Source: a virus
Reading direction: 5' to 3' (one strand)
DNA: 64,000 bases
IMG/VR virus record: IMGVR_UViG_3300017917_002838
Coordinates: 1 to 64,000 of that record
Below are positions 15,041 to 27,193 of this stretch, piece after piece. How positions within the stretch are numbered: the first letter of the stretch is position 1; each line of letters begins with the position of its first letter. The notes beneath the pieces are model-generated. The model had not been told where the DNA came from and did not search any database. It saw nothing but the letters and a program-made list of their open reading frames with translations. The position numbers were made by a program, and so were the translations under genes.

Positions 15041-15062
15041 GGGCTCGGTGGATCGCTTACGG
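15041..15062 (+). repeat. GGGC-N12-TTACGG element at the left edge of the putative origin
   Basis: A copy of the recurring element not tied to a promoter. It lies in G/C-rich non-coding DNA about 110 bases left of the first DnaA box. Confidence 0.65.
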
Positions 15063-15099
15063 GAAATGGTACGATACTCACGGGCAGCTAGCGCCCCCC

Positions 15100-15400
15100 T
15101 GTAGGTGCGGACTAAATTATTGATTTATGAAGAAGTAAATAAGATCCCTGGCCCGCAGAATAGGGGGCGTTTTCCACAGGCTTACGCACAGGTGTGGATA
15201 ACCCTCGAGAAATCTGTGGATAAGCTACGGCGTGTCGCCCACACCGCAAATGTCCGATTTCTCCCAATCCTGCTTACGGGAGTGTCGTAGATCCACTTTG
15301 AAATAGGTGTAAATTTACAGGTTTTTTATTGGGTTTTTTAACACTTAAATTATTGCTATTTTTTACCTATCAAAAAAGCCCAATATTTTCGTGTAACGCA
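15100..15400. other. ori: Putative replication origin (DnaA-box cluster plus AT-rich tract)
   Basis: Within 54 bases lie two perfect DnaA boxes on the minus strand (TTATCCACA, at 15193-15201 and 15215-15223) and two near matches on the plus strand (TTTTCCACA at 15170-15178, TTACGCACA at 15182-15190). About 80 bases on, 15296-15390 is strongly AT-rich and suits an unwinding element. The 552-base gap between coding genes has no credible ORF. The arrangement is that of a bacterial or plasmid DnaA-dependent origin. Confidence 0.7.
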
Positions 15401-15419
15401 TTCGGGCGTGTCGAAGGCA

Positions 15420-15504
15420 TGTGAGGCGTATCACAAATTATTTTTCAAGATGCCCGAATTATACGCATTTCTAATTTGATTTTGTCGGTGCGTTCGTGTA
15501 TCTT
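15420..15504 (+). promoter_or_regulatory. Early promoter module 2
   Basis: A perfect TGTGA-GGCGTA-TCACA palindrome at 15420-15435, then TGTCGG at 15483 and TATCTT at 15499 (16 bases start to start). Drives the 69-residue barrel-like gene. A related block, GTAACG-N4-CGGGCGTGTCG, precedes it and recurs at 16.68 kb. Confidence 0.65.
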
Positions 15505-15534
15505 TGGTATTAGTCAATTAGAAAGAAGGTTCAA

Positions 15535-15744
15535 ATGTCCGCTCTCACATTTTCTCACAAAGGTTTGCTCGTTGGCAAATTCTACCAAGGTTCTCGCGGG
15601 TCTGGAATTATCCAGGAAGCCCAAGATTCAGAGGCTTGGTATGGCAGAGGAATTTCTGCCTATAAAGTTCGCGTTCGTCCTGATTACAAGGGTGATGGAA
15701 TTTATCTCGAAGATTTCTGGGCAACAGTTGCCGTAGAATGTTAG
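15535..15744 (+). CDS. Small barrel-like early protein (paralogue of the product at 14.4 kb)
   Basis: 69 residues. Shares the K-x-LL-GK-Y-RGSG-I framework and the VRV and FWATV strands with its paralogue, with a four-residue insertion before the VRV strand. RBS AGAAGG. It has its own promoter module, so the two copies can be expressed separately. Confidence 0.65.
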   Translation: MSALTFSHKGLLVGKFYQGSRGSGIIQEAQDSEAWYGRGISAYKVRVRPDYKGDGIYLEDFWATVAVEC

Positions 15745-15820
15745 GGGATAACTAACCGAAACGGGGGCAGTTTCGAGAGTGTTCTCGCCCAACGTCGTAA
15801 GTAATAACTCTCACCATTTT

Positions 15821-15842
15821 TGTCAGCGCCAGATGATACAAT
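15821..15842 (+). promoter_or_regulatory. Early promoter module 3
   Basis: TGTCAG at 15821 and TACAAT at 15837, with a 10-base spacer. No GGGC-N12-TTACGR copy and no CRP-type site are visible upstream. Confidence 0.65.
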
Positions 15843-15866
15843 TCAGAAATAAACGAAAGGGAAAAA

Positions 15867-16046
15867 ATGAGCCAGATGAAATTATCGTTAGAAAATTTTG
15901 ACGAAATGCTAAACGAAGTTTATGGAGAAATAAATGTTGCGGGCAGTATTTTCACCGCTTCAGATATTCTTAAAAATTGCGATTCTATTGCTTATAGTGT
16001 TTATGCCGCAGATTATTTAAGTTTTGATGAAGAAGAAGGGGAATAA
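15867..16046 (+). CDS. Small acidic protein, unknown
   Basis: 59 residues (LENFDEMLNEVYGEINVAG...). RBS GAAAGGGAAAAA, the form used by nearly all genes behind the early modules. Two-helix character with an acidic tail. First gene of a six-gene microprotein operon. Confidence 0.55.
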   Translation: MSQMKLSLENFDEMLNEVYGEINVAGSIFTASDILKNCDSIAYSVYAADYLSFDEEEGE

Positions 16047-16047
16047 A

Positions 16048-16188
16048 ATGAAAAAATATAAAGTAACCTATGAAACTTTTGTAGAGGCTGAAGATAATCT
16101 TCGTGCCATGTTCAAGGCTAATCATAAATTAGACCCGCTTGGAGATGTTCAGTTTCAGTTTGATGTTGTAGATGTTGAAGAGGTATAA
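16048..16188 (+). CDS. Small beta-alpha-beta protein, unknown
   Basis: 46 residues (KKYKVTYETFVEAEDNLRAMFKANHK ... FQFDVVDVEE). The alternation of a strand, a helix starting EAED and a final strand is common in short phage proteins. A similar product is encoded at 40.1 kb (KTYKIKVDAEVMIQAFSAEDAMDYL). Confidence 0.55.
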   Translation: MKKYKVTYETFVEAEDNLRAMFKANHKLDPLGDVQFQFDVVDVEEV

Positions 16189-16189
16189 A

Positions 16190-16327
16190 ATGGCAGAGAT
16201 GGAATTTTTTCGTATGGATAGCGAGGGAGCGGGCTGGCTACCGCTCTCTCAAATGAGTAAAGATGAATTTGATGAATTAGAAAAATCAGTTGCGTTTGAG
16301 TTAGAATTTTCCAAATACTTTAGATAA
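16190..16327 (+). CDS. Small protein, unknown
   Basis: 45 residues (MEFFRMDSEGAGWLPLSQMSKDEFDELEKS). One aromatic-rich loop and one acidic helix. Two bases from its upstream neighbour. Confidence 0.5.
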   Translation: MAEMEFFRMDSEGAGWLPLSQMSKDEFDELEKSVAFELEFSKYFR

Positions 16328-16340
16328 GGGAGAAATAAAA

Positions 16341-16454
16341 ATGGGTAATTTATTAGATGTTATCGGTATCGAATGTATTACATGCGGAACTGCCGGATTT
16401 GTTTTCTATGGTGATGAAGGTATAACAGTTATGCCTTGCGAGTGTGAGGAATAA
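16341..16454 (+). CDS. Zinc-binding microprotein
   Basis: 37 residues. IECITCGTAGFVFYGDEGI and MPCECEE supply C-x2-C and C-x-C pairs, a single-ribbon layout. RBS AAGGGAGAA. Confidence 0.6.
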   Translation: MGNLLDVIGIECITCGTAGFVFYGDEGITVMPCECEE

Positions 16455-16457
16455 AAA

Positions 16458-16559
16458 ATGTACACGTTTATAGTTGTATCACTTTCAGTTATTGCTACTC
16501 TAATTGGAGTAGCATTAGCAATTGTATTTTTTGATTTGGAAGAAAATGAAAATTCATAA
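16458..16559 (+). CDS. Small single-pass membrane protein
   Basis: 33 residues. A hydrophobic helix from residue 3 to about 25 (FIVVSLSVIATLIGVALAIV), then an acidic end. Overlaps the following gene by 14 bases. Confidence 0.5.
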   Translation: MYTFIVVSLSVIATLIGVALAIVFFDLEENENS

Positions 16560-16671
16560 AAGCATAGTTACAAAGGTTCAAGAGTTGCGTAGAAGTAATG
16601 CAGCTACACCGATCCCGTCTAAAAAAATTTATTCACGAAAGAAAAAACATAGGTTAAAAAAAGAGGAATAA
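16546..16671 (+). CDS. Small basic protein
   Basis: 41 residues, pI very high (KKIYSRKKKHRLKKEE near the C-terminus). Could bind nucleic acid. It is out of frame with, and overlaps, the preceding membrane-protein gene. Confidence 0.45.
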   Translation: MKIHKSIVTKVQELRRSNAATPIPSKKIYSRKKKHRLKKEE

Positions 16672-16708
16672 ATTCGTGTAACGTAGTCGGGCGTGTCGCG
16701 GCCCCCGC

Positions 16709-16788
16709 GGGCTTAAAGACTTTGTTACGGAGATCACATTAATTTCACGGGTCTAGGAGTTGCCAATGTCAGTGGCCTGTGTTATCGT
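16709..16788 (+). promoter_or_regulatory. Early promoter module 4
   Basis: GGGC-N12-TTACGG (16709-16730), CRP-type TGTTA-N6-TCACA (16723-16738, overlapping the TTACG part), TGTCAG at 16767, TATCGT at 16783. Confidence 0.65.
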
Positions 16789-16816
16789 TCTCTTACCTGC
16801 TACGAAAGGACTCCAA

Positions 16817-16957
16817 ATGGACGATTTATCTGCTGACCTCTATGGCGACTGGTTCGAGGCTGAGGAATACTCAACCGACGAAGAATATGAGGAGTGGGTC
16901 GATACCGACCTATTCTATGACAATGAACCACCGGCTGATGATATGTGGGGCTTTTAG
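16817..16957 (+). CDS. Acidic early microprotein (copy 1)
   Basis: 46 residues, one third acidic (LYGDWFEAEEYSTDEEYEEW). Start at the ATG after GAAAGGA. Similar in size and composition to the gene in the next module. A DNA-mimic role is a guess. Confidence 0.5.
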   Translation: MDDLSADLYGDWFEAEEYSTDEEYEEWVDTDLFYDNEPPADDMWGF

Positions 16958-16975
16958 CCCCACTAGGGCCCCGGC

Positions 16976-17050
16976 GGGCCCCAGTGTGTTGTTACGACAC
17001 GAAAATATTTTAGCCATAAACTTGCGAATGTCGGTTGTTTCTGCTATGGT
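16976..17050 (+). promoter_or_regulatory. Early promoter module 5
   Basis: GGGC-N12-TTACGA (16976-16997), CTTGCGAATGTCGG ending in TGTCGG at 17029, and TATGGT at 17045. The CTTGCGAATGTC string also occurs in module 10. Confidence 0.6.
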
Positions 17051-17078
17051 TCTACCACCAACTACGAAAGGGCCAAAA

Positions 17079-17222
17079 ATGGAAATTTACAACGGCGGCG
17101 AACTCATCGATTTCTCCAACGAGGAGTATTTTGAGGGCATCATCTTTGCTGATGAATGCGATGCGGAGGAGGCTTATTTTGAGTCTCTATGGCTCGAGGA
17201 CCAAGAACAGGAGTGGATATAA
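17079..17222 (+). CDS. Acidic early microprotein (copy 2)
   Basis: 47 residues, strongly acidic (EEYFEGIIFADECDAEEAYFESLWLEDQEQ). RBS GAAAGGG. A single-gene unit between two modules. Confidence 0.5.
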   Translation: MEIYNGGELIDFSNEEYFEGIIFADECDAEEAYFESLWLEDQEQEWI

Positions 17223-17241
17223 GCCCCTCTGGGGCCCCCGT

Positions 17242-17321
17242 GGGCTTTTTAATCTTGTTACGGGCATGTGATAATTATCACCGATCTGCAGCTATATTTT
17301 GTCGGTGGCCTCATGTATAAT
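17242..17321 (+). promoter_or_regulatory. Early promoter module 6
   Basis: GCCCCCGTGGGC hairpin with a following T-run, the GGGC-N12-TTACGG element (17242-17263), CRP-type TGTGA-TAATTA-TCACC (17267-17282), TGTCGG at 17300 and a perfect TATAAT at 17316. This is the clearest complete module. Confidence 0.75.
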
Positions 17322-17343
17322 CTAGACTAAGAAAAGGGGAACC

Positions 17344-18060
17344 ATGAAACTAAAACGCTCTAACGATAGGAAGGTAACCAATGCCGTCTCCAAGAATGGA
17401 AAAACACCCGCTATTGCTAATACTTTTGGGCTACCTGCTGGGAAGGATTTCTCATGTCCTGGCGCTACTAGCATCTGCGAAAGTGTCTGCTATGCAGGAA
17501 AACTCGAAAAACTCTACAAGGGAGTAAAAGCCGTACTACTGCATAACTGGGAATTGTTACGCAATGCAGATATGGATACCATGCTACTTTTGATTGATGA
17601 GATGATTGTTGACTTTATTGCAGATTGTGAAAAGAAAAATGCGCCTAAACTCTTCCGTATACACTGGGACGGTGATTTCTTTAATGAAACATATACACAC
17701 GCATGGAGACTAGTAATCATGAACCATCCAGACGTAAAATTCTGGGTCTATACTCGCGTAAAATCTTCTGCCGAGATTCTTCAAGGCTTAGAGAATTTAT
17801 CAGTTTACTATTCTACCGATTCTGAGAATAAAGAAACCGCTCAAGAATTATCTGGTAAAGGCGTAAAACTTGCATACCTTGCAACTACTTTTGCAATGGC
17901 TAAAGAAGATATGCTAAATCTAATTGGAAAATCAGGCGTTAAGTGTCCTGAGAATAATAAAAAGATACCGCTTATTTCTGTAAATGGTTCTGCATGCGTT
18001 ACATGTGGGCAATGCGTATATGAAAGAAACGATATTCTTTTCTCCGCTACTAAAAAATAA
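17344..18060 (+). CDS. gp88-family protein (mycobacteriophage L5 gp88-like)
   Basis: 238 residues. FSCPGATSICESVCYAG near the N-terminus, FRIHWDGDFFN in the middle and ACVTCGQCVY at the end are the family signatures, and the eight or so conserved cysteines suggest metal or iron-sulfur binding. The family is widespread in actinophages and its function is not established. The gene has its own promoter module. Confidence 0.75.
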   Translation: MKLKRSNDRKVTNAVSKNGKTPAIANTFGLPAGKDFSCPGATSICESVCYAGKLEKLYKGVKAVLLHNWELLRNADMDTMLLLIDEMIVDFIADCEKKNAPKLFRIHWDGDFFNETYTHAWRLVIMNHPDVKFWVYTRVKSSAEILQGLENLSVYYSTDSENKETAQELSGKGVKLAYLATTFAMAKEDMLNLIGKSGVKCPENNKKIPLISVNGSACVTCGQCVYERNDILFSATKK

Positions 18061-18132
18061 AATAACAAAAACAGTTTTCAATTTCAGTTTTTGATCTTGA
18101 AAATATTTTCAATTTGAAAATTGGGCCCCCAT

Positions 18133-18220
18133 GGGCATTTTGTACCTTTTAAGGCGTGAGATTTATCACACCCGGAAACTGCATCTTGGATTATGCCATG
18201 TCAGTATTAGATGATATAAT
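18133..18220 (+). promoter_or_regulatory. Early promoter module 7
   Basis: GGGC-N12-TTAAGG (one mismatch to TTACGR, 18133-18154), CRP-type CGTGA-GATTTA-TCACA (18155-18170), TGTCAG at 18199, perfect TATAAT at 18215. Confidence 0.7.
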
Positions 18221-18249
18221 TTTCGCACAAACAACAAGAAGGGGAAACA

Positions 18250-18543
18250 ATGAAACAACCAACACTACAAGAACTACTAGACGCATGCTCCGATTCTATC
18301 GTTGCTGATGAAATTACAAACGAGGCAAAGACTCTAATCGCAACTCTTCAAGGTTCAGATAATCGTAATCAAATTATCTCAGAATTATTCGAGTATTCTT
18401 CTAGCCTTGCTTCTATGGTACTTACAAATGTACTTCATGTGTTATACACGCACGAACAAGTACAAGAACTAATCAAAGCGCAAGAACAGGCTATGGCCGA
18501 TGAACTAACAAATGAAATATCACAATTCTTAGGGGGTAAATAA
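18250..18543 (+). CDS. Helical early protein, unknown
   Basis: 97 residues, almost all helix (LQELLDACSDSIVADEITNEAKTLIATLQGS). RBS AAGGGGAAAC. One base upstream of the next gene, so the two are probably translated together. Confidence 0.55.
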   Translation: MKQPTLQELLDACSDSIVADEITNEAKTLIATLQGSDNRNQIISELFEYSSSLASMVLTNVLHVLYTHEQVQELIKAQEQAMADELTNEISQFLGGK

Positions 18544-18544
18544 T

Positions 18545-18859
18545 ATGGGAAGAAATTTTGCAGAGGCATTATCAAACGTTGAAGGATTAGATATTGAGGA
18601 TGCAATTGCTATGCATCTTCAGTCTAATCACTATCCACCAATTCCAGTTGAAATGGTGACACCATGCATCCAGGCTATTGCTTGCTATAACAATGAATTT
18701 GATATGGATTTGCCTATTGCTCTACCCGAAATTGACGGATTCCAGGTAACTTACAAAGGCAGAACAACTGCACCTGCATGGTCAATTATTGAACAGCATC
18801 ATCTGCATCCATGGCTATATGATTACTATAATGATTATCCAGAAGAGGATGAGGACTAA
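18545..18859 (+). CDS. Conserved early protein, unknown
   Basis: 104 residues. HHLHPWLYDYYNDYPEEDED closes the protein with aromatic and acidic residues, and GFQVTYKGRTTAPAW suggests a small beta element. Follows its neighbour by one base. Not recognised. Confidence 0.55.
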   Translation: MGRNFAEALSNVEGLDIEDAIAMHLQSNHYPPIPVEMVTPCIQAIACYNNEFDMDLPIALPEIDGFQVTYKGRTTAPAWSIIEQHHLHPWLYDYYNDYPEEDED

Positions 18860-18984
18860 TGGCAATTTGCGTATCATGTGACGAACAAGGCACTCACGAA
18901 ATTATTGCCAATTCTTTTTATCTTTCAGGAACTTGGTATTGTTGTGCGTGTCTTGGACAATGTAATTGTGAGGATGAAAGCTGA
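18859..18984 (+). CDS. Zinc-ribbon microprotein
   Basis: 41 residues. CVSCDEQGTHE, then WYCCACLGQCNCED, gives several C-x2-C pairs, a compact treble-clef or ribbon. TAATG overlap upstream and ATGA-type overlap downstream. Confidence 0.6.
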   Translation: MAICVSCDEQGTHEIIANSFYLSGTWYCCACLGQCNCEDES

Positions 18985-19079
18985 TGAAATGTTGGAGTTG
19001 TGATCAAATAATTGATCAAGAAATGGAGGGCTATCACCTGGTTGATGGCTCTCCAACTTGTTGTGAGTGTGAGGACTAA
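18984..19079 (+). CDS. Zinc-ribbon microprotein
   Basis: 31 residues (KCWSCDQII, then TCCECED). Two C-x2-C pairs around one hairpin. It ends the operon one base before the next GGGC element. Confidence 0.55.
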   Translation: MKCWSCDQIIDQEMEGYHLVDGSPTCCECED

Positions 19080-19088
19080 GGCCCCCGT

Positions 19089-19146
19089 GGGCCTAAAAGA
19101 TCTCTTACGACACGATTTGATTAATGTCGGTGCCTTGGTATATAAT
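19089..19146 (+). promoter_or_regulatory. Early promoter module 8
   Basis: GCCCCCGTGGGC hairpin, GGGC-N12-TTACGA (19089-19110), TGTCGG at 19125, perfect TATAAT at 19141. There is no full CRP-type palindrome and the TTACGA-to-TGTCGG distance is the shortest of the set (20 bases). Confidence 0.7.
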
Positions 19147-19173
19147 TCTACTAACTTAAAAGAAAGGGAAAAA

Positions 19174-19425
19174 ATGCTAGATACAACTAACTGGGCAAGA
19201 TACGAGTTTACTATTGGAGGTCTTACTTTTGTTTCGCTTGTAAATCAAGCAGGTACAATTTATCCAAAAGTTTCTATGCTTCCAAGACCAGTTCTTGATG
19301 ACATTAATCGACAAGCAATTCTAAGTTTAGTTGGTAATGTTGAATTTATGACTAGAACAGAAATCCAAGAAAAACTTGCTGAGGCAAACGAGTTCGCAAG
19401 CCAAGCGTTGCTTGAACTGGTCTAA
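19174..19425 (+). CDS. Early protein, unknown
   Basis: 83 residues. Start at the ATG behind GAAAGGGAAAAA. N-terminal strands (YEFTIGGLTFVSLVNQ) and a C-terminal helix (TEIQEKLAEANEFASQALLEL). Followed by a perfect hairpin. Confidence 0.55.
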   Translation: MLDTTNWARYEFTIGGLTFVSLVNQAGTIYPKVSMLPRPVLDDINRQAILSLVGNVEFMTRTEIQEKLAEANEFASQALLELV

Positions 19426-19434
19426 TTAATAATA

Positions 19435-19462
19435 GATAGCGGGTACTTCCCCACCCGCTATC
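19435..19462 (+). terminator. Hairpin after the 83-residue gene
   Basis: GATAGCGGGT / ACCCGCTATC, a 10-bp perfect stem with a CTTCCCC-type loop, directly abutting the next GCCCCCGTGGGC element. Confidence 0.6.
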
Positions 19463-19470
19463 GCCCCCGT

Positions 19471-19551
19471 GGGCCCAACAACACGCTTACGATCATGTGA
19501 AATTTATCACAGCTTTTGAGCTTGATCTATGTCGGTGGCCTATGCTAGAAT
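19471..19551 (+). promoter_or_regulatory. Early promoter module 9
   Basis: GGGC-N12-TTACGA (19471-19492), a perfect CRP-type TGTGA-AATTTA-TCACA (19496-19511), TGTCGG at 19530, TAGAAT at 19546. Confidence 0.75.
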
Positions 19552-19580
19552 ATGCTCACAACAAAATAAGGAGGCTAAAA

Positions 19581-19769
19581 ATGGATACACTATCCGTAAA
19601 GACACGACTATATCAGATAGGTGATTTATTTACCACTCTAAAGTCTGGTACTACTGGTGTAATCAAGGAAATCCATAGAACGGGGTCTGGCTCGGCTCGC
19701 GTATTGCTAGATGTTGGCGGTAAAGACCGCTGGACTAGCGTATCGGCTGAAGATTTAGACCTTCGCTAG
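19581..19769 (+). CDS. Small beta-rich early protein
   Basis: 62 residues (IGDLFTTLKSGTTGVIKEIHRTGSGSARVLLDVGGKDRW). The pattern is of an SH3-like or KOW-like small barrel. Start at the ATG behind AAGGAGG. Confidence 0.55.
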   Translation: MDTLSVKTRLYQIGDLFTTLKSGTTGVIKEIHRTGSGSARVLLDVGGKDRWTSVSAEDLDLR

Positions 19770-19774
19770 TCAAT

Positions 19775-19802
19775 TTGACGACACCTGAGTAAGTGTGATA
19801 AA
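19775..19802 (+). promoter_or_regulatory. Sigma-70-type promoter with a duplicated 32-base element
   Basis: TTGACG, 16 bases, GATAAA, without the TGTCRG element. The string ACACCTGAGTAAGTGT...AAACTGCTCACCAA from 19781 recurs almost unchanged from 21762, just upstream of tRNA-Asp. Confidence 0.5.
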
Positions 19803-19842
19803 CTGCTCACCAACAAAAACAACAACTATCGAAAGGGAAAAA

Positions 19843-20265
19843 ATGAGTAGAGGCAAAGCGATAAATGTTAAAATCGCTACAAGCAAAGTAATCAAGGCGC
19901 TAGAAACTAAACTAGCGCAAATCAAGAAAACCTATGCTGAGCAAGATGCTCTAGAGGCTAAATACCAAAAGTCTTTAGAAAAGTGGAACAAAGAATTGTT
20001 AGAGTTCGCACTTGCTAATATCAAGAAGGCTAAGAATCTTCGTGTGAATATGCGTAGTTGGGATAAATCGTTAAATGTTGATTTTGATATTCCAACACTT
20101 GATGGAGAGTATCCAAAACAACCACAGCGAGAGTTCGAGCAACTACACACTCACTCATATAACGAGATGGTAGAAGAAATTGAGAACGCAATTCGTATTC
20201 TCAAAATGACCGACGAGGAAGTTGTAAGCACAAGCACATACAACGCAATCGCTCGTTATCTCTAA
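19843..20265 (+). CDS. Early coiled-coil protein, unknown
   Basis: 140 residues. A long basic helix (KVIKALETKLAQIKKTYAEQDALEAKYQKSLEKW shape) is followed by a beta segment (NVDFDIPTLDGEY) and a C-terminal helix. Start at the ATG behind GAAAGGGAAAAA. Not recognised. Confidence 0.6.
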   Translation: MSRGKAINVKIATSKVIKALETKLAQIKKTYAEQDALEAKYQKSLEKWNKELLEFALANIKKAKNLRVNMRSWDKSLNVDFDIPTLDGEYPKQPQREFEQLHTHSYNEMVEEIENAIRILKMTDEEVVSTSTYNAIARYL

Positions 20266-20393
20266 GTTTCCTATACGCCCCTTTCTGGGGCACACGGGAA
20301 TGAACCTTCCTGAGCAAGAAGCAAAAAGGCTCCCTCACCTAGGCACGTGAAGGCTAAACTGCCTACCATATCCCTACTAGAGAAAGTCAATTA

Positions 20394-20609
20394 ATGACAC
20401 GATTTAAAGTTGAAATCTGGGACGAGATCCCGCAAAATGATATCACCGTTTGGTTAGAAGAGGGCACTGATGCTCGTGGACTGTCTGAAATAGTCTGGTC
20501 CAATTTGAATAAGTTCCAAGGCAATGTAACTGGAGTACTAGTTGACACACTGCATAATAAAAGAAAGTTTGCATGCTACTATCCCATGGAGATTGTCTCA
20601 TCCAGGTAA
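20394..20609 (+). CDS. Small early protein, unknown
   Basis: 71 residues with a beta-alpha-beta outline (RFKVEIWDEIPQNDITVWLEEG ... VLVDTLHNKRKFACYYP). RBS GAGAAAG. Followed by a GCAGCTCCG / CGGAGCTGC hairpin. Confidence 0.55.
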   Translation: MTRFKVEIWDEIPQNDITVWLEEGTDARGLSEIVWSNLNKFQGNVTGVLVDTLHNKRKFACYYPMEIVSSR

Positions 20610-20611
20610 GA

Positions 20612-20641
20612 ATGCAGCTCCGTACCCCTTTCGGAGCTGCG
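20612..20641 (+). terminator. Terminator-type hairpin
   Basis: GCAGCTCCG / CGGAGCTGC perfect 9-bp stem, TACCCCTTT loop, no U-run. It abuts the next GCCCCCTAGGGC element. Confidence 0.6.
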
Positions 20642-20648
20642 CCCCCTA

Positions 20649-20720
20649 GGGCGATATGTCCGTTTTACGATAGCTAAAAAGATCACCAGGCTTGCGAATG
20701 TCAGTCTTATCTGGTATTAT
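20649..20720 (+). promoter_or_regulatory. Early promoter module 10
   Basis: GGGC-N12-TTACGA (20649-20670), a weak CRP half-site (GATCACC), TGTCAG at 20699, TATTAT at 20715. Confidence 0.65.
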
Positions 20721-20746
20721 TCTCGAATCAACTAAGAAAGGAAAAA

Positions 20747-21754
20747 ATGGCTCACAATCTCGAAACCGAAAATGGCGAAGTTGCTTTTGCTTTGCGGGGC
20801 GCTCCTGCTTGGCACAATCTTGCTAATCGTATTTTCTCAAAAGATGAGGAAGTATCAACTCAACTAATGCTAACAGAGGCTAAACTTTCTAATTGGAATG
20901 TTCGCCTCTCTCCAGTAACCGACCACATTCCTGCTGAATGGAATGATGTATCAGGTTCGCAATATGTTATTCGTACTAATCCATTTAATCAAGGAACTGA
21001 TGTTTTATCTGTTGTCGGTTCTCGATATCAAGTAATTCAGAATGAGGAATTATTTTCATTCGCTGATAATATCCTAGACGGTGATTCTCGTTGTGCTTGG
21101 GAATCTGCTGGCTCCTTAAAGTCAGGCAAGGTTGTATTCGGTTCTCTTACTGTTCCTCGTGAAATGGTATTAGACCCACAAGGCGCTAATGATAAGACTC
21201 AGTTATATCTTATCGTTTGGACATCTCATGACGGTTCTGTTGCTGTTCAAGCAGCGATTACACCAGTTCGTGTAGTTTGCCAAAACACCCTTAATCTTGC
21301 TATGAAGTCTGCTAAGCAGTCATTCAAGATTCGTCACACTCAATCTGCTGATGGAAAGATTCAAGTAGCACGAGAAACTCTTGGATTAACATTTCAATAC
21401 TTTGATGAATTTGAGAAAGAGGCTCAATCTCTATTTTCTCAAAGCATTACTGATGTAGAGTTCTCAAAACTTATTCAGACTATTTATCCAAAGCCTGATA
21501 AAGATACAAAGAATGCTATCACCCGCTGGGAAAATAAGGTTGTTATGCTTGATGACCTTTATCACAATTCCCCGACTAATGCTAATATCAAGGGAACAAA
21601 GTGGGGTGCGTTCAATGCGTTAACCGAGCGTTTGGATTATTACCGAAATGGTAAAGGTTCTAATTCAGATTCTCGTTATGCTTCCGCTTCAGGTTTCGAC
21701 CCTGTTATTACCGCTGAAAAGAATAAGATTCTTCAGGCTGTAAAAGCGTTCTAA
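20747..21754 (+). CDS. DUF932 phage/plasmid-like protein (TIGR03299 type)
   Basis: 335 residues, the usual length. GAPAWHNLANRIF near the N-terminus, SVVGSRYQVIQNEELFSFAD in the middle and RVVCQNTLNLAM are family signatures. DUF932 proteins are common on plasmids and phages and sit near early or replication genes; the biochemical role is unknown. RBS AGAAAGGAAAAA. Confidence 0.8.
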   Translation: MAHNLETENGEVAFALRGAPAWHNLANRIFSKDEEVSTQLMLTEAKLSNWNVRLSPVTDHIPAEWNDVSGSQYVIRTNPFNQGTDVLSVVGSRYQVIQNEELFSFADNILDGDSRCAWESAGSLKSGKVVFGSLTVPREMVLDPQGANDKTQLYLIVWTSHDGSVAVQAAITPVRVVCQNTLNLAMKSAKQSFKIRHTQSADGKIQVARETLGLTFQYFDEFEKEAQSLFSQSITDVEFSKLIQTIYPKPDKDTKNAITRWENKVVMLDDLYHNSPTNANIKGTKWGAFNALTERLDYYRNGKGSNSDSRYASASGFDPVITAEKNKILQAVKAF

Positions 21755-21793
21755 TCGCAACACCTGAGCAAGTGTCTAAACTGCTCACCAATT

Positions 21794-21867
21794 GGTTCGT
21801 TAGCTTAGTTGGATAAAGCGCTACCCTGTCACGGTAGAGATCACGGGTTCAAGTCCCGTACGAATCG
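21794..21867 (+). tRNA. tRNA-Asp (GUC)
   Basis: Cloverleaf: acceptor GGTTCGT / ACGAATC with one G-U pair, D-arm GCTT / AAGC, anticodon arm CTACC-CTGTCAC-GGTAG, T-arm ACGGG-TTCAAGT-CCCGT. No encoded CCA. The only tRNA on the plus strand, lying between two early modules. Confidence 0.93.
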
Positions 21868-21874
21868 CCCCCTA

Positions 21875-21951
21875 GGGCCACAAAAATGTGTTACGAATCA
21901 CAAAATATTCCCCCCAAAAAGTAGACAAGTGTCAGTCCGGTAGTGTACAAT
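21875..21951 (+). promoter_or_regulatory. Early promoter module 11
   Basis: GCCCCCTAGGGC at the 3' edge of the tRNA, GGGC-N12-TTACGA (21875-21896), CRP-type TGTGT-TACGAA-TCACA (21887-21902), TGTCAG at 21930, TACAAT at 21946. Confidence 0.7.
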
Positions 21952-21978
21952 TCTCCGCATACCAACGAAAGGAAAGAA

Positions 21979-22443
21979 ATGGAACAAACAACAAACAAGT
22001 TTGATAATGTTCAACCTTGGGAAGCAAAAGAGTTTCTTCAGCAACTAGATGAGAAACTAACTATCAAAGACGAAATTATCGTTGATTTAGATAAGCGTGT
22101 TTGGGAATTGAAAGAATCATTAGCAAAGGCTCAGGAAGATACTTCCAAGATTTTCAATAAATTTACTACATTGAAAGAATCTATCTTCTCTCTACTCGAT
22201 AATAATCGTGAGGGAGATGAAATTGAAATTACATTAGACGAGGCTAATGACTTTTTATATGCTAATGGTATTCAAACTATCAAGACTACCTACTCAGTTC
22301 ATTTTACAATTACTGGCGTTCTTGAAATCGAAGCAAGTAATGAAGATGAGGCCGAGCGTGAAGCCAGCGATGTTGATGTATCACATCATATGGGCGAAAT
22401 CACAGAGTTTGACGTTACCATAGATAGCGTGGAACAAGAGTAA
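21979..22443 (+). CDS. Early protein with N-terminal coiled coil
   Basis: 154 residues. Residues about 12-60 form a coiled coil (LDEKLTIKDEIIVDLDKRVWELKESLAKAQ), and the C-terminal part (TYSVHFTITGVLEIEASNEDEAEREAS) is a beta-alpha-beta domain similar in outline to the 46-residue early protein at 16 kb. Start at the ATG behind GAAAGGAAAGAA. Unknown function. Confidence 0.6.
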   Translation: MEQTTNKFDNVQPWEAKEFLQQLDEKLTIKDEIIVDLDKRVWELKESLAKAQEDTSKIFNKFTTLKESIFSLLDNNREGDEIEITLDEANDFLYANGIQTIKTTYSVHFTITGVLEIEASNEDEAEREASDVDVSHHMGEITEFDVTIDSVEQE

Positions 22444-22706
22444 TGCTATATCAACTACAGGCACCTAACAAGTCCGCTTTCAATTTATCTGTGTTCGAGG
22501 CGGACTTGGCTGGACTAGACCCAGAATATGATACAAAAAACCTAACAATGGAAATTGGAACAGGTAAAGTAGAGAAGGTAAGAAACCTTATCATTAAATA
22601 CAAACTAATGGTATTATTTGAGAAGGAGTACGGATATAGTAATGAAGCATATATCCGAGCAGGCAAAGAAGGAAGAATCCTGAAAGGTGGAGTAAATCTA
22701 CAATGA
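22443..22706 (+). CDS. Early protein, unknown
   Basis: 87 residues (AFNLSVFEADLAGLDPEYDTKNLTMEIG...). Mixed alpha/beta, no motif recognised. TAATG overlap upstream and 4-base overlap downstream. Confidence 0.55.
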   Translation: MLYQLQAPNKSAFNLSVFEADLAGLDPEYDTKNLTMEIGTGKVEKVRNLIIKYKLMVLFEKEYGYSNEAYIRAGKEGRILKGGVNLQ

Positions 22707-22852
22707 ACTATAAAGAAGGTTATATAGATGGATATAGGCAAGCACGGGAAGATATTGCCGAATCCTTAAGAAAACTTGTAGATGACCTAGATGAGCATTA
22801 TTCTGAACTAGTAGATGACCTAGCAGATAAATTGGAGGCTGGCAGTATATGA
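22703..22852 (+). CDS. Small helical protein, unknown
   Basis: 49 residues (YKEGYIDGYRQAREDIAESLRKLVDDLDEHYSELVDDLADKLEAG). The YxxGYxDGYxxAREDI start is typical of short phage proteins with a helical hairpin. Overlaps both neighbours by four bases. Confidence 0.55.
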   Translation: MNYKEGYIDGYRQAREDIAESLRKLVDDLDEHYSELVDDLADKLEAGSI

Positions 22853-23034
22853 GCGAATGGATCGGTTGCGATAAATGTAGTGTTGCTGTTGCTCTTTATC
22901 AAGTTAAAGGAATCGAGGGTGAGTTATTTTTCTGCCACCACCACTTCCAGGAGAACGAAGAAAAATTAAGAACCTGGGCATTTGAAGTAATAGACCTAAA
23001 GGCTGAGGTTTTAGAAGAAGAACCTGTTGTTTGA
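22849..23034 (+). CDS. DUF7455-like zinc protein
   Basis: 61 residues. IGCDKCSVAVALYQV, then ELFFCHHHFQENEEKL, is the CDRC...LxFCGHH pattern of a small family frequent in actinobacteria and their phages. One zinc ion would be held by the C-x2-C and C-H-H groups. Confidence 0.65.
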   Translation: MSEWIGCDKCSVAVALYQVKGIEGELFFCHHHFQENEEKLRTWAFEVIDLKAEVLEEEPVV

Positions 23035-23059
23035 CAATAAAATACTGGTCAACTATAAT
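23031..23059 (+). promoter_or_regulatory. Perfect consensus promoter for a small RNA
   Basis: TTGACA, 17 bases, TATAAT, with no mismatches. The TTGACA overlaps the stop codon of the preceding gene. It differs from the TGTCRG early class. Confidence 0.9.
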
Positions 23060-23065
23060 AAAAGA

Positions 23066-23173
23066 ACCAACCGTTAGGTGGAGCTATCAGCTTAATGCGA
23101 GCTAGTTCTTAAATATAGCATTCCCAGTATGCAGCCTAACAGTTACAGGCCCTCTTGATCAGAGGGCCTTTTT
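23066..23173 (+). ncRNA. Candidate small RNA of about 108 nt
   Basis: Starts 7 bases after a perfect -10 box and ends in an intrinsic terminator. A GTTAGG / CCTAAC stem (23073-23078 with 23135-23140) closes a multibranch region that holds AGCT repeats and alternative GCTA / TAGC and GCAT / ATGC stems. There is no start codon with RBS. The separate consensus promoter and terminator make an independent RNA gene likely; its family is not recognised. Confidence 0.7.
23147..23173 (+). terminator. Intrinsic terminator of the small RNA
   Basis: AGGCCCTCT / AGAGGGCCT, perfect 9-bp stem with TGATC loop and a five-T run. Confidence 0.9.
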
Positions 23174-23184
23174 AATGCCCACTC

Positions 23185-23294
23185 GGGCGAATAAATCTTC
23201 TTACGGCCCCCTTGGGCGATATTTCCGATTTATGACAATGTGTTTTAGATCACAGGATTTTGTGTAGACAAATGTCAGTGGTGCGTTATATAAT
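23185..23294 (+). promoter_or_regulatory. Early promoter module 12, with the GGGC element in tandem
   Basis: Two copies in tandem: GGGC-N12-TTACGG (23185-23206) and GGGC-N12-TTATGA (23214-23235). Then CRP-type TGTGT-TTTAGA-TCACA (23239-23254), TGTCAG at 23273, perfect TATAAT at 23289. Confidence 0.75.
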
Positions 23295-23300
23295 TAGGGC

Positions 23301-23465
23301 ATGAACAAATTACCGACAAATTGGCGGAGAATGTCGGAAGCCGACAAAGATGCTTTTATATTGTCATATCATACTGGTAAAATGTTTTGTAATTGCACAA
23401 ACTGTATAAACGAAAGGGAAAATAATGCCAAATTGGGTATTCAATACCTTGACAATTCAAGGTAA
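23301..23465 (+). CDS. Possible leaderless 54-residue protein
   Basis: ATG lies 6 bases after the TATAAT of module 12, with no RBS. The product has a C-N-C-T-N-C cluster (KMFCNCTNCINERE), a plausible metal site. Its last 41 bases overlap the next gene in another frame. If real, it is made from a leaderless mRNA and its stop lies inside the Api92-like gene. Confidence 0.45.
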   Translation: MNKLPTNWRRMSEADKDAFILSYHTGKMFCNCTNCINERENNAKLGIQYLDNSR

Positions 23466-24156
23466 TAAATCAGAAGTAGATTATATCAAAGATAAACTAA
23501 ATGAACCATTTACTCGTCAATACGATAATTGGAATATGGAAACACAAAAAATGGAAATTCAAGAAACTACCTATAGCAATCCTGTATTTTCATTTTGGAA
23601 TATCGTTCGTCCTACCGACCTCGAATCATATGTAAAACAACCTGAACATTCCACGGGTCAAACAATATCTGAAATCTTTTCAGGTAATGATTGGTATTCT
23701 TGGAATGTAAGAAATTGGGGAACCAAATGGGATGTTGCTGTTAGTGATAATAATAAATATACTGATACGGTATTAGTTGAGCATAAGTCAGAAGGTGAAG
23801 ACCAATGGCTTGTATATAAATTTGATACTGCTTGGTCCCCTCCTGTTTCTGCATTAGAAAGTTTATCTGAATTAGTTCCTAATTGTGTAGTAACTTTAGA
23901 TTGGCAGGAAGAGCAGGGATTTGGTGGACAAATAGAATTTATCCGAGGAGATGTAACTGCTGAATCTGATTATGAATCTAGATGTTATGACTGTGATGCA
24001 ATTGACACAATGGAGTATTGTGAAAATGACTGTGGTCAAATCTGTTCTAAATGTAATAATCTTGGCGAAGCCGACCTAGATTGTGTTGCAGAATGTCAGG
24101 ACCATAAGATATACTTGGAGACCAATGTACCCGATTATAGAAAGGCGGACCTATGA
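23425..24156 (+). CDS. Api92/YubB-like protein with a C-terminal zinc extension
   Basis: 243 residues. MPNWVFNTLTIQG at the start, WGTKWDV in the middle and FDTAWSPPVSALESLSE are typical of the Api92/DUF1281 ferredoxin-like fold found on plasmids and phages. After residue 195 an added cysteine-rich segment (CYDCDA, YCENDCGQICSKC) looks like a zinc-binding domain. The function is unknown. RBS GAAAGGGAAAAT. Confidence 0.7.
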   Translation: MPNWVFNTLTIQGNKSEVDYIKDKLNEPFTRQYDNWNMETQKMEIQETTYSNPVFSFWNIVRPTDLESYVKQPEHSTGQTISEIFSGNDWYSWNVRNWGTKWDVAVSDNNKYTDTVLVEHKSEGEDQWLVYKFDTAWSPPVSALESLSELVPNCVVTLDWQEEQGFGGQIEFIRGDVTAESDYESRCYDCDAIDTMEYCENDCGQICSKCNNLGEADLDCVAECQDHKIYLETNVPDYRKADL

Positions 24157-24383
24157 GTTTCTTGGATGAAGAAAACCAGCAAGTTGTAGATTTAATTATT
24201 CAAGAAGTTGCTGAGGCATTATTTGAAGAATGGAATAATGCCAATTTAGATGAAGGCGATCTTTATGCAGATTATCAAATTCTAAATCATGCTGGAAGCA
24301 ATTACTTATATGGCAGATTCAATCAATACTACGATTTGAAACCAGGCGATGAATATTATATTGAATGGGACGAGGAGGCATAA
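24153..24383 (+). CDS. Acidic early protein, unknown
   Basis: 76 residues, acidic helix (VVDLIIQEVAEALFEEWNNANLDEGD) then an aromatic-rich end. Four-base overlap with the Api92-like gene and TAATG overlap with the next. Confidence 0.55.
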   Translation: MSFLDEENQQVVDLIIQEVAEALFEEWNNANLDEGDLYADYQILNHAGSNYLYGRFNQYYDLKPGDEYYIEWDEEA

Positions 24384-24538
24384 TGCTAGGATATACTGAA
24401 AAAGATCTAAACGATATGATTAATGGTGTCCTGGTCTCTTTGGACGCGACAAATCCGGAAGAGACTGATATAATTAGGCAACTAAATATGGCAAACGATT
24501 TCTTACAAGGCCTTTGGGCGGAAGGATATTTTGACTAA
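24383..24538 (+). CDS. Small helical protein, unknown
   Basis: 51 residues (LGYTEKDLNDMINGVLVSLDATNPEETDII...). Two helices. Overlaps both neighbours by one base. Confidence 0.5.
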   Translation: MLGYTEKDLNDMINGVLVSLDATNPEETDIIRQLNMANDFLQGLWAEGYFD

Positions 24539-24882
24539 TGGGAATGTATGACCAATCATGGTGTGTCTCGTGTGGAGCAGGAATGCTCTATACAGAGGAT
24601 GAAAATGTTACATGCTACAGATGTGACCAGGAAGAATATAACAAGCTCGAAACACGAGTATCTAGGTTTATGGAATATATTAAACTATATGTTATTAGTC
24701 TAGAGCAAGACGCAGATAGATTAGAAGAATTAAAACAAAACTTTCAAGGCGACTATGATTCAGAAGAATATGAGAATATAGTTCTTGATGACTACTATAA
24801 TACTGGAGAGCTTATTGCTTCCCGCCATTTATTGTCAGTAGCACAAAATATGATTGGTCAAAAGGAAAGGGAGGAAGTATGA
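24538..24882 (+). CDS. Zinc-ribbon plus coiled-coil protein
   Basis: 114 residues. SWCVSCGAGM and VTCYRCDQEEY form a four-cysteine ribbon at residues about 8-30, and the rest is a long helix (YVISLEQDADRLEELKQNF). Unknown partner. Confidence 0.6.
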   Translation: MGMYDQSWCVSCGAGMLYTEDENVTCYRCDQEEYNKLETRVSRFMEYIKLYVISLEQDADRLEELKQNFQGDYDSEEYENIVLDDYYNTGELIASRHLLSVAQNMIGQKEREEV

Positions 24883-25133
24883 GAGAGCTGAATATAAGTC
24901 CACGTCTACAAAAACTTATAGATAATGGAATCGATTCATTGGATATTATGCACGGTGAGCTTAAGAATCTAATGGTTGAAGCCGAGAAAGAATTAGAGGC
25001 AGCTATAGAGGAAGAAGAGCGTACCGAGGAGGCAATGGATTCCATGGAGCGCAAATATTGGGAGGGCCAGTTAGACGCTCTATCAATTGTTTATTCATTA
25101 ACATACAAACTATCATTTGCAAGAAAGGATTAA
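24879..25133 (+). CDS. Coiled-coil early protein
   Basis: 84 residues, acidic coiled coil from about residue 25 (MHGELKNLMVEAEKELEAAIEEEERTEEAMDSMER). Overlaps its upstream neighbour by four bases. Not recognised. Confidence 0.55.
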   Translation: MRELNISPRLQKLIDNGIDSLDIMHGELKNLMVEAEKELEAAIEEEERTEEAMDSMERKYWEGQLDALSIVYSLTYKLSFARKD

Positions 25134-25134
25134 T

Positions 25135-25293
25135 ATGTACTTAACAAATGAATTCGTTCAACGTGAACTTGCCAGGGCACAACAGCTGCTTTGGGGAAGA
25201 TCTGAGACAGAGAATATCGAAGCTCATAATATCGTAGCTGCATTGCTTGTTGATCTAGAACGGGCGGGCAATAGGGCTTACGGGCTAAATTGA
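25135..25293 (+). CDS. Small helical protein; 3' end carries a regulatory element
   Basis: 52 residues (FVQRELARAQQLLWGRSETENIEAHNIVAALLVDLER). The last codons contain the GGGC half of the next element, so the regulatory repeat is embedded in coding sequence here. Confidence 0.5.
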   Translation: MYLTNEFVQRELARAQQLLWGRSETENIEAHNIVAALLVDLERAGNRAYGLN

Positions 25294-25337
25294 TGACTTA
25301 CGGTATATTGACAAAATTCACGGGCACGTTATATAAT
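25282..25337 (+). promoter_or_regulatory. Early promoter module 13, sigma-70 type
   Basis: GGGC-N12-TTACGG (25282-25303) followed by TTGACA (25308), 18 bases and TATAAT (25332). The TGTCRG box is replaced by a canonical -35. It is the only module where the GGGC element is next to a full sigma-70 promoter. Confidence 0.7.
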
Positions 25338-25361
25338 TAACCACCAATAGAAAGGAAAAAA

Positions 25362-25721
25362 ATGGGAGATAGAATAGTTTACTCGATTAAGCAAGATAGC
25401 AATTTGTCTATAAATCTATACAGTCATTGGGGAGGTTATGGACGATTTGAACTTCTTGCTAAGGCTTTAAACAAAGCTAGGCCTAGATGGGATGACACAT
25501 CCTATGCCACCCGCATTATTGTTTCGCAGCTTATAGGAGACGGATGGGATGACGAGACTGGTTTTGGTTTATGGGCCAGCAATGAACATGGTGCATATGG
25601 AGGAGACCATCCAGACATTATTATTAATCTAATTAATAAAACTGTAGAGGATGAAACTGGTGTACATGATTTTGATAAGTTTATCGATTATCATCTATCG
25701 AAGGTAGCTGCTAATGGCTAA
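25362..25721 (+). CDS. Early protein, unknown
   Basis: 119 residues. SINLYSHWGGYGRFELLAKAL and TRIIVSQLIGDGWDDETGFGLWA are short conserved-looking blocks seen in phage proteins that act near DUF4241-type genes. RBS GAAAGGAAAAAA. Overlaps the next gene by 8 bases. Confidence 0.55.
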   Translation: MGDRIVYSIKQDSNLSINLYSHWGGYGRFELLAKALNKARPRWDDTSYATRIIVSQLIGDGWDDETGFGLWASNEHGAYGGDHPDIIINLINKTVEDETGVHDFDKFIDYHLSKVAANG

Positions 25722-26046
25722 AAAGAAATTAGATCTATCTGATATTGAACATATTGGAAGTTTTATGGTTGACAGCGGTCAAGCTATTATAGGTGACCCG
25801 TGCTATTTAGATGAATGGAATCCTAACACAAATGATGACTTCGAACCCGAAATATATGCAGGCGAATACGGTTACCTAGGAGCATGTCAAGCAACCCTCT
25901 CAGAAGCTGGAGGAGGCACCATAGGAATGAGCTCTGCAGTTGCAGTGTCAACTGGATGGGGCGACGGTGTCTATCCTGTCTACGTAAGGCGTGGAGAAGA
26001 TGATCGTATTATGCAAGTTATTATAGACTTCGAAGGGGTAATCTAA
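25714..26046 (+). CDS. DUF4241-like protein
   Basis: 110 residues. SFMVDSGQAIIGDPCYLDEW and VAVSTGWGDGVYPVYV match the DUF4241 core. The family occurs in many bacteria and phages with no assigned activity. Translationally coupled to the preceding gene. Confidence 0.65.
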   Translation: MAKKKLDLSDIEHIGSFMVDSGQAIIGDPCYLDEWNPNTNDDFEPEIYAGEYGYLGACQATLSEAGGGTIGMSSAVAVSTGWGDGVYPVYVRRGEDDRIMQVIIDFEGVI

Positions 26047-26054
26047 GATTCGTA

Positions 26055-26133
26055 GGGCGGAAAAAATGTCTTACGATCATAACTAAATAATGGCGGGACT
26101 CATATTTACAATACCTGTACAATATGATAAAAT
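26055..26133 (+). promoter_or_regulatory. Early promoter module 14
   Basis: GGGC-N12-TTACGA (26055-26076), then TTTACA (26105), 17 bases and TAAAAT (26128). No TGTCRG box. Confidence 0.6.
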
Positions 26134-26159
26134 TACAGTGTCTATGAAAGGACATAAAA

Positions 26160-26306
26160 ATGACAACAAAGCGAGACTATCTAAAGTCTAAGGGCATCAC
26201 AGTTGGAGCCCGTGGCCGTTTCTCAGGAGCTGCAAAGCAAGCTCTTCAGGAGGCCGCAAAGCAAGGCATTCAGTTCTCTGACGAGAAGTCTTCTGCAAAG
26301 AAGTAA
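26160..26306 (+). CDS. Lsr2 DNA-binding-domain-like microprotein
   Basis: 48 residues (RDYLKSKGITVGARGRFSGAAKQALQEAAKQG). The W/Y-x2-x-G-x-V-x-x-RGR-x order, with an RGR core flanked by two helices, matches the C-terminal DNA-binding domain of actinobacterial Lsr2, which inserts RGR into the minor groove of AT-rich DNA. The N-terminal oligomerisation domain is absent, so it could cap or displace host Lsr2. RBS GAAAGGAC. Confidence 0.6.
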   Translation: MTTKRDYLKSKGITVGARGRFSGAAKQALQEAAKQGIQFSDEKSSAKK

Positions 26307-26309
26307 TAA

Positions 26310-26495
26310 ATGCCAGCAATGAAATCCAGGAGGGGTCCTCGTCCAAAGGACCTGGACCTCTCGTGGTCAATTGGATCCAAAGCTATTAATCGGCGGAAGC
26401 TCGAGAAGCAGCGTGAAATAGATCTATATAATAGTTTGTGTGGACCGGTTACGGTCTCATATATTGAACCCAAATTGACAAACCCGAACAGATAG
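26310..26495 (+). CDS. Small basic protein, unknown
   Basis: 61 residues (KSRRGPRPKDLDLSW, then NRRKLEKQREIDLYNSL). Basic N-terminus with a short helix. Three bases after the Lsr2-like gene, without a clear RBS, so coupled translation is likely. Confidence 0.5.
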   Translation: MPAMKSRRGPRPKDLDLSWSIGSKAINRRKLEKQREIDLYNSLCGPVTVSYIEPKLTNPNR

Positions 26496-26509
26496 GATAG
26501 GATATCACA

Positions 26510-26773
26510 ATGGCTAAGTCTAAAGATGAAAAGTTGGCGGAACAGTTTATCGAAGCCTTATCCAACCACTATTTTGATACACCAGGATTTGCCAATAAAC
26601 TAGTTACATTTGCTCCACATTATACAATAGATAAACTAGTCCAAGTTATAGAACATATTATTCTATTTGGATATCATAGGCAAAAACAGGATTGGGAGAA
26701 TAATTCAGTAACATCTCCAGGCCTAATCACCCTAAGAGATTGGAAGATTCTCCTAGATGAAAGGAATATATAG
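26510..26773 (+). CDS. Early protein, unknown
   Basis: 87 residues, mostly helical (EKLAEQFIEALSNHYFDTPGFANKLV). Last gene of the plus-strand early region. RBS GGATAGGAT. Confidence 0.6.
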   Translation: MAKSKDEKLAEQFIEALSNHYFDTPGFANKLVTFAPHYTIDKLVQVIEHIILFGYHRQKQDWENNSVTSPGLITLRDWKILLDERNI

Positions 26774-26834
26774 AACCCCTACTTCTATGTGTTCCTAATT
26801 AGGATGTGTTAATTCCCTTTCTTCATCCTAATTA

Positions 26835-26868
26835 ATATCCCCCCAAACGTCCTTCGGGGGGATATTTT
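26835..26868 (+). terminator. Terminator of the early region
   Basis: ATATCCCCCC / GGGGGGATAT with a TTTTTA tail, the strongest intrinsic terminator on this strand. An AATTAGGATG...CATCCTAATT inverted repeat precedes it. Confidence 0.85.
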
Positions 26869-26918
26869 TATGCCCAAAAATAATTGATCTGATCTACATC
26901 AAATAGCTACGGGCCTAT

Positions 26919-26940
26919 GGGCCCAAATTCGCTTTTACGA
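26919..26940 (+). repeat. GGGC-N12-TTACGA element in non-coding DNA
   Basis: An exact copy beyond the early terminator. A weak TGTCGA...TAAAAT promoter follows at 26977-26997. Confidence 0.6.
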
Positions 26941-27009
26941 TCAATATAGATAAATCACTGGAAATATATAGCAATATGTCGACAAATCTATTAAAATATA
27001 TATAGAATA

Positions 27010-27193
27010 TCTCAGAATGTGAGACAAATAGATTAAAATGATCTCAAAATATGAGATTATCTACCAGAATTGTGGGCGAATTGTCCGTTTTACGGGCATA
27101 TTTCCACAAACACTGGCACATATAGAAGGTATATATATGGACAAAATATCACATATTGGACTAAAAATAAGATTATGATCTCATTATATGAGA
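27010..27193. promoter_or_regulatory. Three TCTCA-N5-TGAGA palindromes
   Basis: Identical arms at 27010-27024, 27042-27056 and 27179-27193 with different five-base centres. The first two are 32 bases apart, about three helical turns. Together with GACAAAT-N2-ATTAAAAT repeats at about 26981 and 27023 they look like a regulated promoter region. The 553-base gap from 26774 to 27326 has no credible coding gene. Confidence 0.6.
27074..27095 (+). repeat. GGGC-N12-TTACGG element in non-coding DNA
   Basis: The rightmost copy, between the second and third TCTCA palindromes. Confidence 0.6.

Follow-up and report, generated by a model that had tools for sequence, protein, structure and literature searches.

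Dispersed control sites in actinophages

The operators and stoperators of L5-type mycobacteriophages share a 13-bp asymmetric consensus, GGTGGMTGTCAAG, and Streptomyces phage phiC31 carries many conserved inverted repeats that act as operators and are dispersed near its early promoters. Stoperators number 26 in TipsytheTRex (PMC9283540), and Cluster K phages harbor 11-19 start-associated sequences (SAS) per genome, nearly all in one orientation and about half with an extra inverted-repeat part (extended SAS, ESAS; PMC3203893). BE cluster phages have terminal repeats of 10-12 kb with lsr2 inside (PMC8612146). Here we describe a rigidly spaced, repeated element, initially recognized as GGGC, 12 free bases and TTACGR, in the first 64,000 nucleotides (hereafter the window) of the 104,555-bp IMG/VR virus record IMGVR_UViG_3300017917_002838. 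The timing of the first genes in large actinophages with long terminal repeats is poorly known, and for freshwater phages of this kind the collections searched hold no isolate close to the window.

A repeated element with fixed spacing in a single early block

GGGC-N12-TTACGR (N, any base; R, purine) occurs 14 times exactly in the window, against 0.04 expected from shuffled sequences, always on the plus strand and within a single 12-kb early block (15041-27095), and the remaining 40 kb of the record contain no further copy. All 13 exact copies listed in the initial annotation of this sequence were recovered; the fourteenth, at 25262, overlaps the copy at 25282 and was absent from that list. 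Two near copies also reported there, at 18133 (TTAAGG) and 23214 (TTATGA), do keep the spacing and bring the total to 16. Across spacings from N4 to N21, the only other plus-strand matches were one at N8 and three at N20, all tandem GGGCs adjoining true copies, while the minus strand gave none at N12 and one unrelated match at the other spacings. N12 alone is enriched, and the restriction to the plus strand proposed in the initial annotation is borne out by this count.

Ten of the 16 copies carry GCCC-N4-GGGC, the potential hairpin that had been noticed in many of them, and the window has it at no other place. Sixteen bases past TTACG there is a third box, C(A/C)CnG, and the corresponding pattern TTACGR-N15-CMCNG has six matches in the window, all at element copies (0.07 expected). 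Both parts of the two-part element first described are real, but the description was incomplete: GGGC-N12-TTACGR is only the middle part of a larger element, with a third box here and four boxes in relatives. The copies are as follows (positions in the window).

15041-15083, plus strand: element copy, GGGC-N12-TTACGG; CACGGG box off register by one base; not directly followed by a promoter
15151-15210, plus strand: relative-type element, CCC..GGG, DnaA-like box, TTACG, inverted DnaA box, CCT
16701-16751, plus strand: element copy, GCCC-N4-GGGC (GGGC at 16709), TTACGG, CACGGG
16968-17018, plus strand: element copy, GCCC-N4-GGGC (GGGC at 16976), TTACGA
17234-17284, plus strand: element copy, GCCC-N4-GGGC (GGGC at 17242), TTACGG, CACCGA; CRP-like palindrome 17268-17281 overlaps the second linker
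18125-18175, plus strand: near copy, TTAAGG; CRP-like palindrome 18156-18169
19081-19131, plus strand: element copy, GCCC-N4-GGGC (GGGC at 19089), TTACGA; least distance (20) to its own promoter
19463-19513, plus strand: element copy, GCCC-N4-GGGC (GGGC at 19471), TTACGA, CACAGC; CRP-like palindrome 19497-19510
20641-20691, plus strand: element copy (GGGC at 20649), upstream of the DUF932 gene (20747-21754)
21867-21917, plus strand: element copy (GGGC at 21875), immediately 3' of tRNA-Asp
23177-23227, plus strand: element copy (GGGC at 23185), downstream of a T-tailed terminator hairpin
23206-23256, plus strand: near copy, TTATGA, CACAGG; in tandem with the 23185 copy
25262-25283, plus strand: element copy (the fourteenth exact one), in tandem with 25282
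25282-25324, plus strand: element copy straddling the -35 of TTGACA (25308-25313) N18 TATAAT (25332-25337)
26055-26097, plus strand: element copy upstream of TTTACA (26105-26110) N17 TAAAAT (26128-26133), the promoter of a mini-Lsr2-like gene
26919-26961, plus strand: element copy in non-coding DNA at the block end
27074-27116, plus strand: element copy in non-coding DNA at the block end

Conservation in related phages

Relatives were retrieved from IMG/VR with two protein queries, yielding 161 related loci in which GGGC-N12-TTACGR again peaks at N12 (249 plus-strand vs 3 minus-strand matches). Secondary peaks appear at N6, N9, N10, and N20; in the N6 and N10 copies inspected singly, the altered spacing is due to an adjacent GGGC and GGG-N13-TTACG is unchanged. 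The skeleton in these relatives reads CCC(nCA)..TGnGGG - N13 - TTACG - N16 - CCCnGAAA, on one strand per genome, and in a non-redundant set anchored on TTACG the boxes fall at -29 (CCC), -19 (TG), -16 (GGG), +21 (CCC), and +25 (GAAA). As originally noted for the window, only the length of the linkers is kept and their sequence is free, in relatives as well. The constant spacing first seen in the window extends to relatives, but the loop length of the hairpin does not, a point missed at first: GCCC lies six bases nearer GGGC in the window than elsewhere.

A weight matrix built from the relatives and trained on promoter-proximal copies gave 625 plus-strand vs 35 minus-strand matches, although some of the latter may stem from loci fetched by pattern, with orientation not set by a gene. 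A TGTCRG promoter lies within ~200 bp of 559 of these 660 matches, and the top match in the window is the relative-type element at 15151-15210. Of 17 large relatives (104-120 kb), 15 contain the stricter pattern GGG-N13-TTACG-N16-CC, with 68 matches in all, on one strand and in one block each; its reversed control has none. Judged by these patterns, the element is found in most of the well-sampled relatives examined. No match to the full skeleton was found in 84,980 bacterial and archaeal genomes, nor do these contain relatives of the DUF932 gene. The exact window form, GCCCCCNNGGGC-N12-TTACGR, was also sought across all viral contigs and set aside, as its three matches were chance-like and came without element context or a nearby early promoter.

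Geometry relative to early promoters

Small plus-strand genes fill the block from 13.8 to 27.3 kb, where a putative early promoter, TGTCRGT-N9-TANNNT, was recognized by pattern (11 matches in the window, all on the plus strand, vs 0.25 expected).

16767-16788, plus strand: early promoter TGTCRGT-N9-TANNNT, pattern match
Starts at 15483, 17029, 17300, 18199, 19125, 19530, 20699, 21930, 23273, and also 24833, plus strand: other pattern matches to TGTCRGT-N9-TANNNT

Such a promoter lies 20-72 bases downstream of 10 of the 16 copies, with those at 23185 and 23214 sharing one, and the 25262/25282 pair and the 26055 copy are upstream of other -35/-10 pairs. The initial description of the element as lying just upstream of an early promoter is accurate for about 13 of the 16 copies. 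In relatives, TGTCRGT is located inside the spacer between a TTGACA-like -35 and a TATAAT -10. Across 18 large records, TGTCRGT-N9-TATAAT is rigid and almost always on one strand, and promoters lacking the element upstream rely on an extended -10 (TGn). In promoters with an element, the -10 and -35 hexamers are better than in the others (p ~3e-9 and ~4e-9, respectively). This makes an activator that rescues weak promoters less likely, and speaks mildly for repression or timing.

The element appears to keep a preferred promoter geometry on one face of the DNA. Taking one dominant value per non-orthologous gene group, element-promoter distances are phased with a period of 10-11.5 bp (jitter p of 5e-5 with distances limited to 60 bp, 0.0009 with a limit of 100 bp, and 0.006 for all), and offsets from TTACG to the -35 cluster at 11-12, 31-34, and 43-46. 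In one class, TTACG lies at a nearly fixed offset, 5-7 bases ahead of TT[GT]ACA, and the third box falls in the promoter spacer, so that the element straddles the -35; TATAAT and the gene for a small Lsr2-like protein follow in many members. The window copy at 25282 has the same build, and at the window orthologue of this class, at 26055, the -35 is ~22 bp, or two turns, further downstream.

Host-type boxes and small DNA-binding proteins

Some of the linkers carry DnaA boxes or a CRP-like palindrome. Of 186 non-redundant copies, 35 hold DnaA-like boxes, 58 have a CRP-like palindrome within or following them, and 122 have neither. Within the window, DnaA boxes show no enrichment. The CRP/GlxR-like palindrome GTGA-N6-TCAC occurs five times there, vs 0.61 expected, always in the early block and in three cases inside or beside an element.

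17268-17281, 18156-18169, 19497-19510, 15421-15434, and 13879-13892: GTGA-N6-TCAC palindromes
26160-26306, plus strand: 48-aa protein like the DNA-binding domain of Lsr2 but lacking its N-terminal domain
38530-38703, minus strand: WhiB-like gene

The small Lsr2-like protein belongs to a strongly conserved group of early proteins of 48-50 amino acids (MTTKREYLKxxGITVGxRGRFSxAA...), encoded in the window, at 15539-15682 of a related locus (L012), and at ~45 other loci. The resemblance to Lsr2 is confined to the DNA-binding half: PF23359 is matched by 10 of 11 members at E-values up to 1 (best 0.00087), with the window protein under the curated cut-off, and the Lsr2 N-terminal domain was not found in the record. 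In relatives, the promoter that the element straddles belongs to the gene of this protein, which may control itself and might also act as a competitor of host Lsr2. The WhiB-like protein could not be tied to the element.

The early block as a putative terminal repeat

The DnaE-type polymerase of this phage shares 59% identity with that of Streptomyces phage BillNye, and its DUF932 protein 51% with that of Evy, both Stanwilliamsviridae. A megablast of the block against known phages gave no match. An actinobacterial host would fit the presence of the WhiB-like gene. Both genome ends of Evy carry the DUF932 gene with its neighbors, which places these early genes within the terminal repeat. By analogy, the block of the window, present as a single copy in the record, likely corresponds to the early-gene terminal repeat (~11 kb in Evy) of Stanwilliamsviridae. 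One large relative (G015, the record of locus L138) has the same promoters at both ends, at 501-2446 and 109243-111188, indicating that the ends overlap; records of this type probably represent circular assemblies in which the terminal repeats have collapsed.

Interpretation and alternative explanations

Taken together, these observations suggest that the element is probably a multi-box DNA operator, or upstream regulatory site, of early promoters and a putative protein-binding site. We favor a protein on DNA because of the fixed-length, free-sequence linkers, the phasing, and the overlap with the -35. One protein, or several forming a small oligomer along the DNA, would recognize CCC..GGG - N13 - TTACG - N16 - C(C/A)CnGRA, a skeleton whose three modules would be about two helical turns apart, and would act from there on host-type RNA polymerase at the block's strong promoters. 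The fixed but free linkers may provide room for boxes of host DnaA or CRP-type proteins. While box sequences, spacings, strand, conservation, promoter position and the lack of RNA covariation can be read from the DNA directly, we infer the binding, the identity of the protein, and the sign of its effect, for which we lean modestly toward repression or timing of strong early promoters rather than activation. The proposal in the initial annotation of a protein contacting sites on one DNA face is strengthened by the ~11-bp phasing, the -35 straddling, the absence of covariation, and the host boxes in some linkers.

Several results weigh against this operator reading. Neither a clear promoter nor a gene follows directly after the copies at 15041, 26919, and 27074, and two large relatives with TGTCRGT promoters (G012 and G013) have no match to the strict element pattern. 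The shift of GCCC between the window and its relatives would not easily be tolerated by a rigid dimer. Phasing weakens past ~60 bp, and the step sizes of promoter distance within ortholog groups show no periodicity, so that the phasing rests on non-orthologous junctions and is good evidence, although not conclusive. Finally, no candidate regulator with a clear site-specific DNA-binding domain was detected among the families searched in the record: sigma factor, HTH_3, ParB, and integrase families (including tyrosine integrases) gave no match, and HTH_17 matched only below cut-off (64011-64172 of the record).

The element could instead function as RNA with a fixed single-stranded link, as the initial annotation had also envisaged. 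In this reading, a hairpin plus such a link would form the 3' terminus of the upstream mRNA and serve in termination, antitermination, or mRNA processing. GCCC and GGGC are able to pair, the window keeps this pairing with a changed loop length, and the elements are intergenic, following stop codons, hairpins, or a tRNA gene. However, covariation-supported pairs are lacking: complementarity at hairpin positions -26/-17 is 0.19 vs 0.23 expected, positions -30/-13 are mostly G-G, the linkers of relatives show no covariation or pairing, and Rfam contains no match. Elements lie anywhere from 0 to 240 bases past the upstream stop codon, and helical phasing to a promoter would not be expected of an RNA signal. 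A T-run is missing after the GCCC/GGGC arms in most copies, in agreement with the initial view that this is not a classic terminator, and true T-tailed hairpins are found upstream of some elements (31 of 201, vs 2% in shuffles), which probably places some of them outside the upstream transcript. With no covariation, no Rfam match, and elements downstream of terminators, an RNA role is quite unlikely. It is rather unlikely, too, that the element primarily serves the terminal-repeat block as DNA, in transfer, site-specific nicking, replication, or packaging, with promoter adjacency being secondary. Its restriction to a block matching the ~11-kb terminal repeat of Evy, the promoterless copies in the non-coding block end, where Evy and Jay2Jay have six TTTACGA copies, and the DnaA boxes in some linkers would fit such a role. 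Yet most copies stand beside promoters at phased distances, one class overlaps the -35 region with a nearly fixed geometry, and the terminal repeat of this phage is itself deduced rather than seen.

Another explanation is a counter-silencing platform, in which host DnaA, CRP-type, and a further protein would keep a putative host Lsr2-type silencer off strong, AT-rich early promoters. The enrichment of GTGA-N6-TCAC in the block, the DnaA boxes in the linkers of relatives, a block-encoded protein like only the DNA-binding half of Lsr2, and the location of BE phage lsr2 genes in terminal repeats (PMC8612146) all point in this direction, but about two-thirds of non-redundant copies (122 of 186) lack both DnaA and CRP boxes and the conserved boxes match neither type of site, making this scenario very unlikely. 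Least credible, and highly improbable, is that the copies merely remain from the duplication of gene cassettes and have no function of their own: such phages do have their early genes in small cassettes, many with their own promoter, but linkers and loops vary between copies while boxes and spacings stay constant, and the element is kept across divergent phages and non-orthologous junctions.

If the operator reading is extended, the element may represent a widespread, rigid four-box platform of freshwater actinophages, on which some phage or host protein would sit on the polymerase's face of the DNA, with DnaA and CRP-type sites interchangeable in the linkers and terminal-repeat early genes tuned to host replication or nutrient state. 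We regard this broader model as tentative and, as a whole, doubtful; should host DnaA or CRP-type proteins bind the linkers, the start of infection would be tied to host physiology. As a signal of fixed geometry that is conserved in about a hundred related sequences, the element can mark the early block in metagenomic contigs, and could be used as bait for the protein that reads it.

Comparison with known systems

Like the stoperators of L5 and Cluster A phages, which are many short asymmetric sites per genome, the element has many dispersed copies in the same orientation relative to transcription, near early promoters. Unlike these, it spans ~60 bp with four boxes and is limited to one block. 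GGTGGMTGTCAAG is not enriched in the window (5 matches at two mismatches vs 1.79 expected, none at elements), and neither HTH_3 nor a tyrosine integrase that would suggest a stoperator-type immunity repressor was found in the record, other repressor families not having been searched. Cluster K SAS also come in multiple copies of mostly single orientation, but they are located at start codons whereas the present element lies upstream of the promoter, and the SAS GGGATAGGAGCCC (as defined in PMC3203893) has no match in the window within two mismatches. The initial opinion that the element is neither an L5 stoperator nor a SAS is consistent with both searches. The operators of phiC31 resemble it as dispersed operator-like sites at actinophage early promoters, a likeness of arrangement rather than of compared sequence, and differ in that no repressor has been identified for the present element.

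The early region of Evy and Jay2Jay (Stanwilliamsviridae) is similar in having related early genes and a promoter at most junctions. Many junctions of Evy show, in this order, a terminator hairpin, a GC-rich palindrome (TGTCSGGSCCGGACA), and the promoter; an intergenic region at 4978-5100 of Evy (L215), for instance, has a hairpin, a palindrome like TGTCCGGCCCGGACA, and a TAGACT-type promoter, with a different box at the corresponding place. The GGG-N13-TTACG skeleton is absent from the Evy early region. Toward the block end, within its final 900 bases, Evy and Jay2Jay carry six copies of TTTACGA, all on the same strand; several are followed by a C-rich box 15-16 bases downstream, and a GGG box is lacking. 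A search of the literature, covering open papers, returned no description of the element. Overall, it looks like an apparently undescribed variant of dispersed phage operators.

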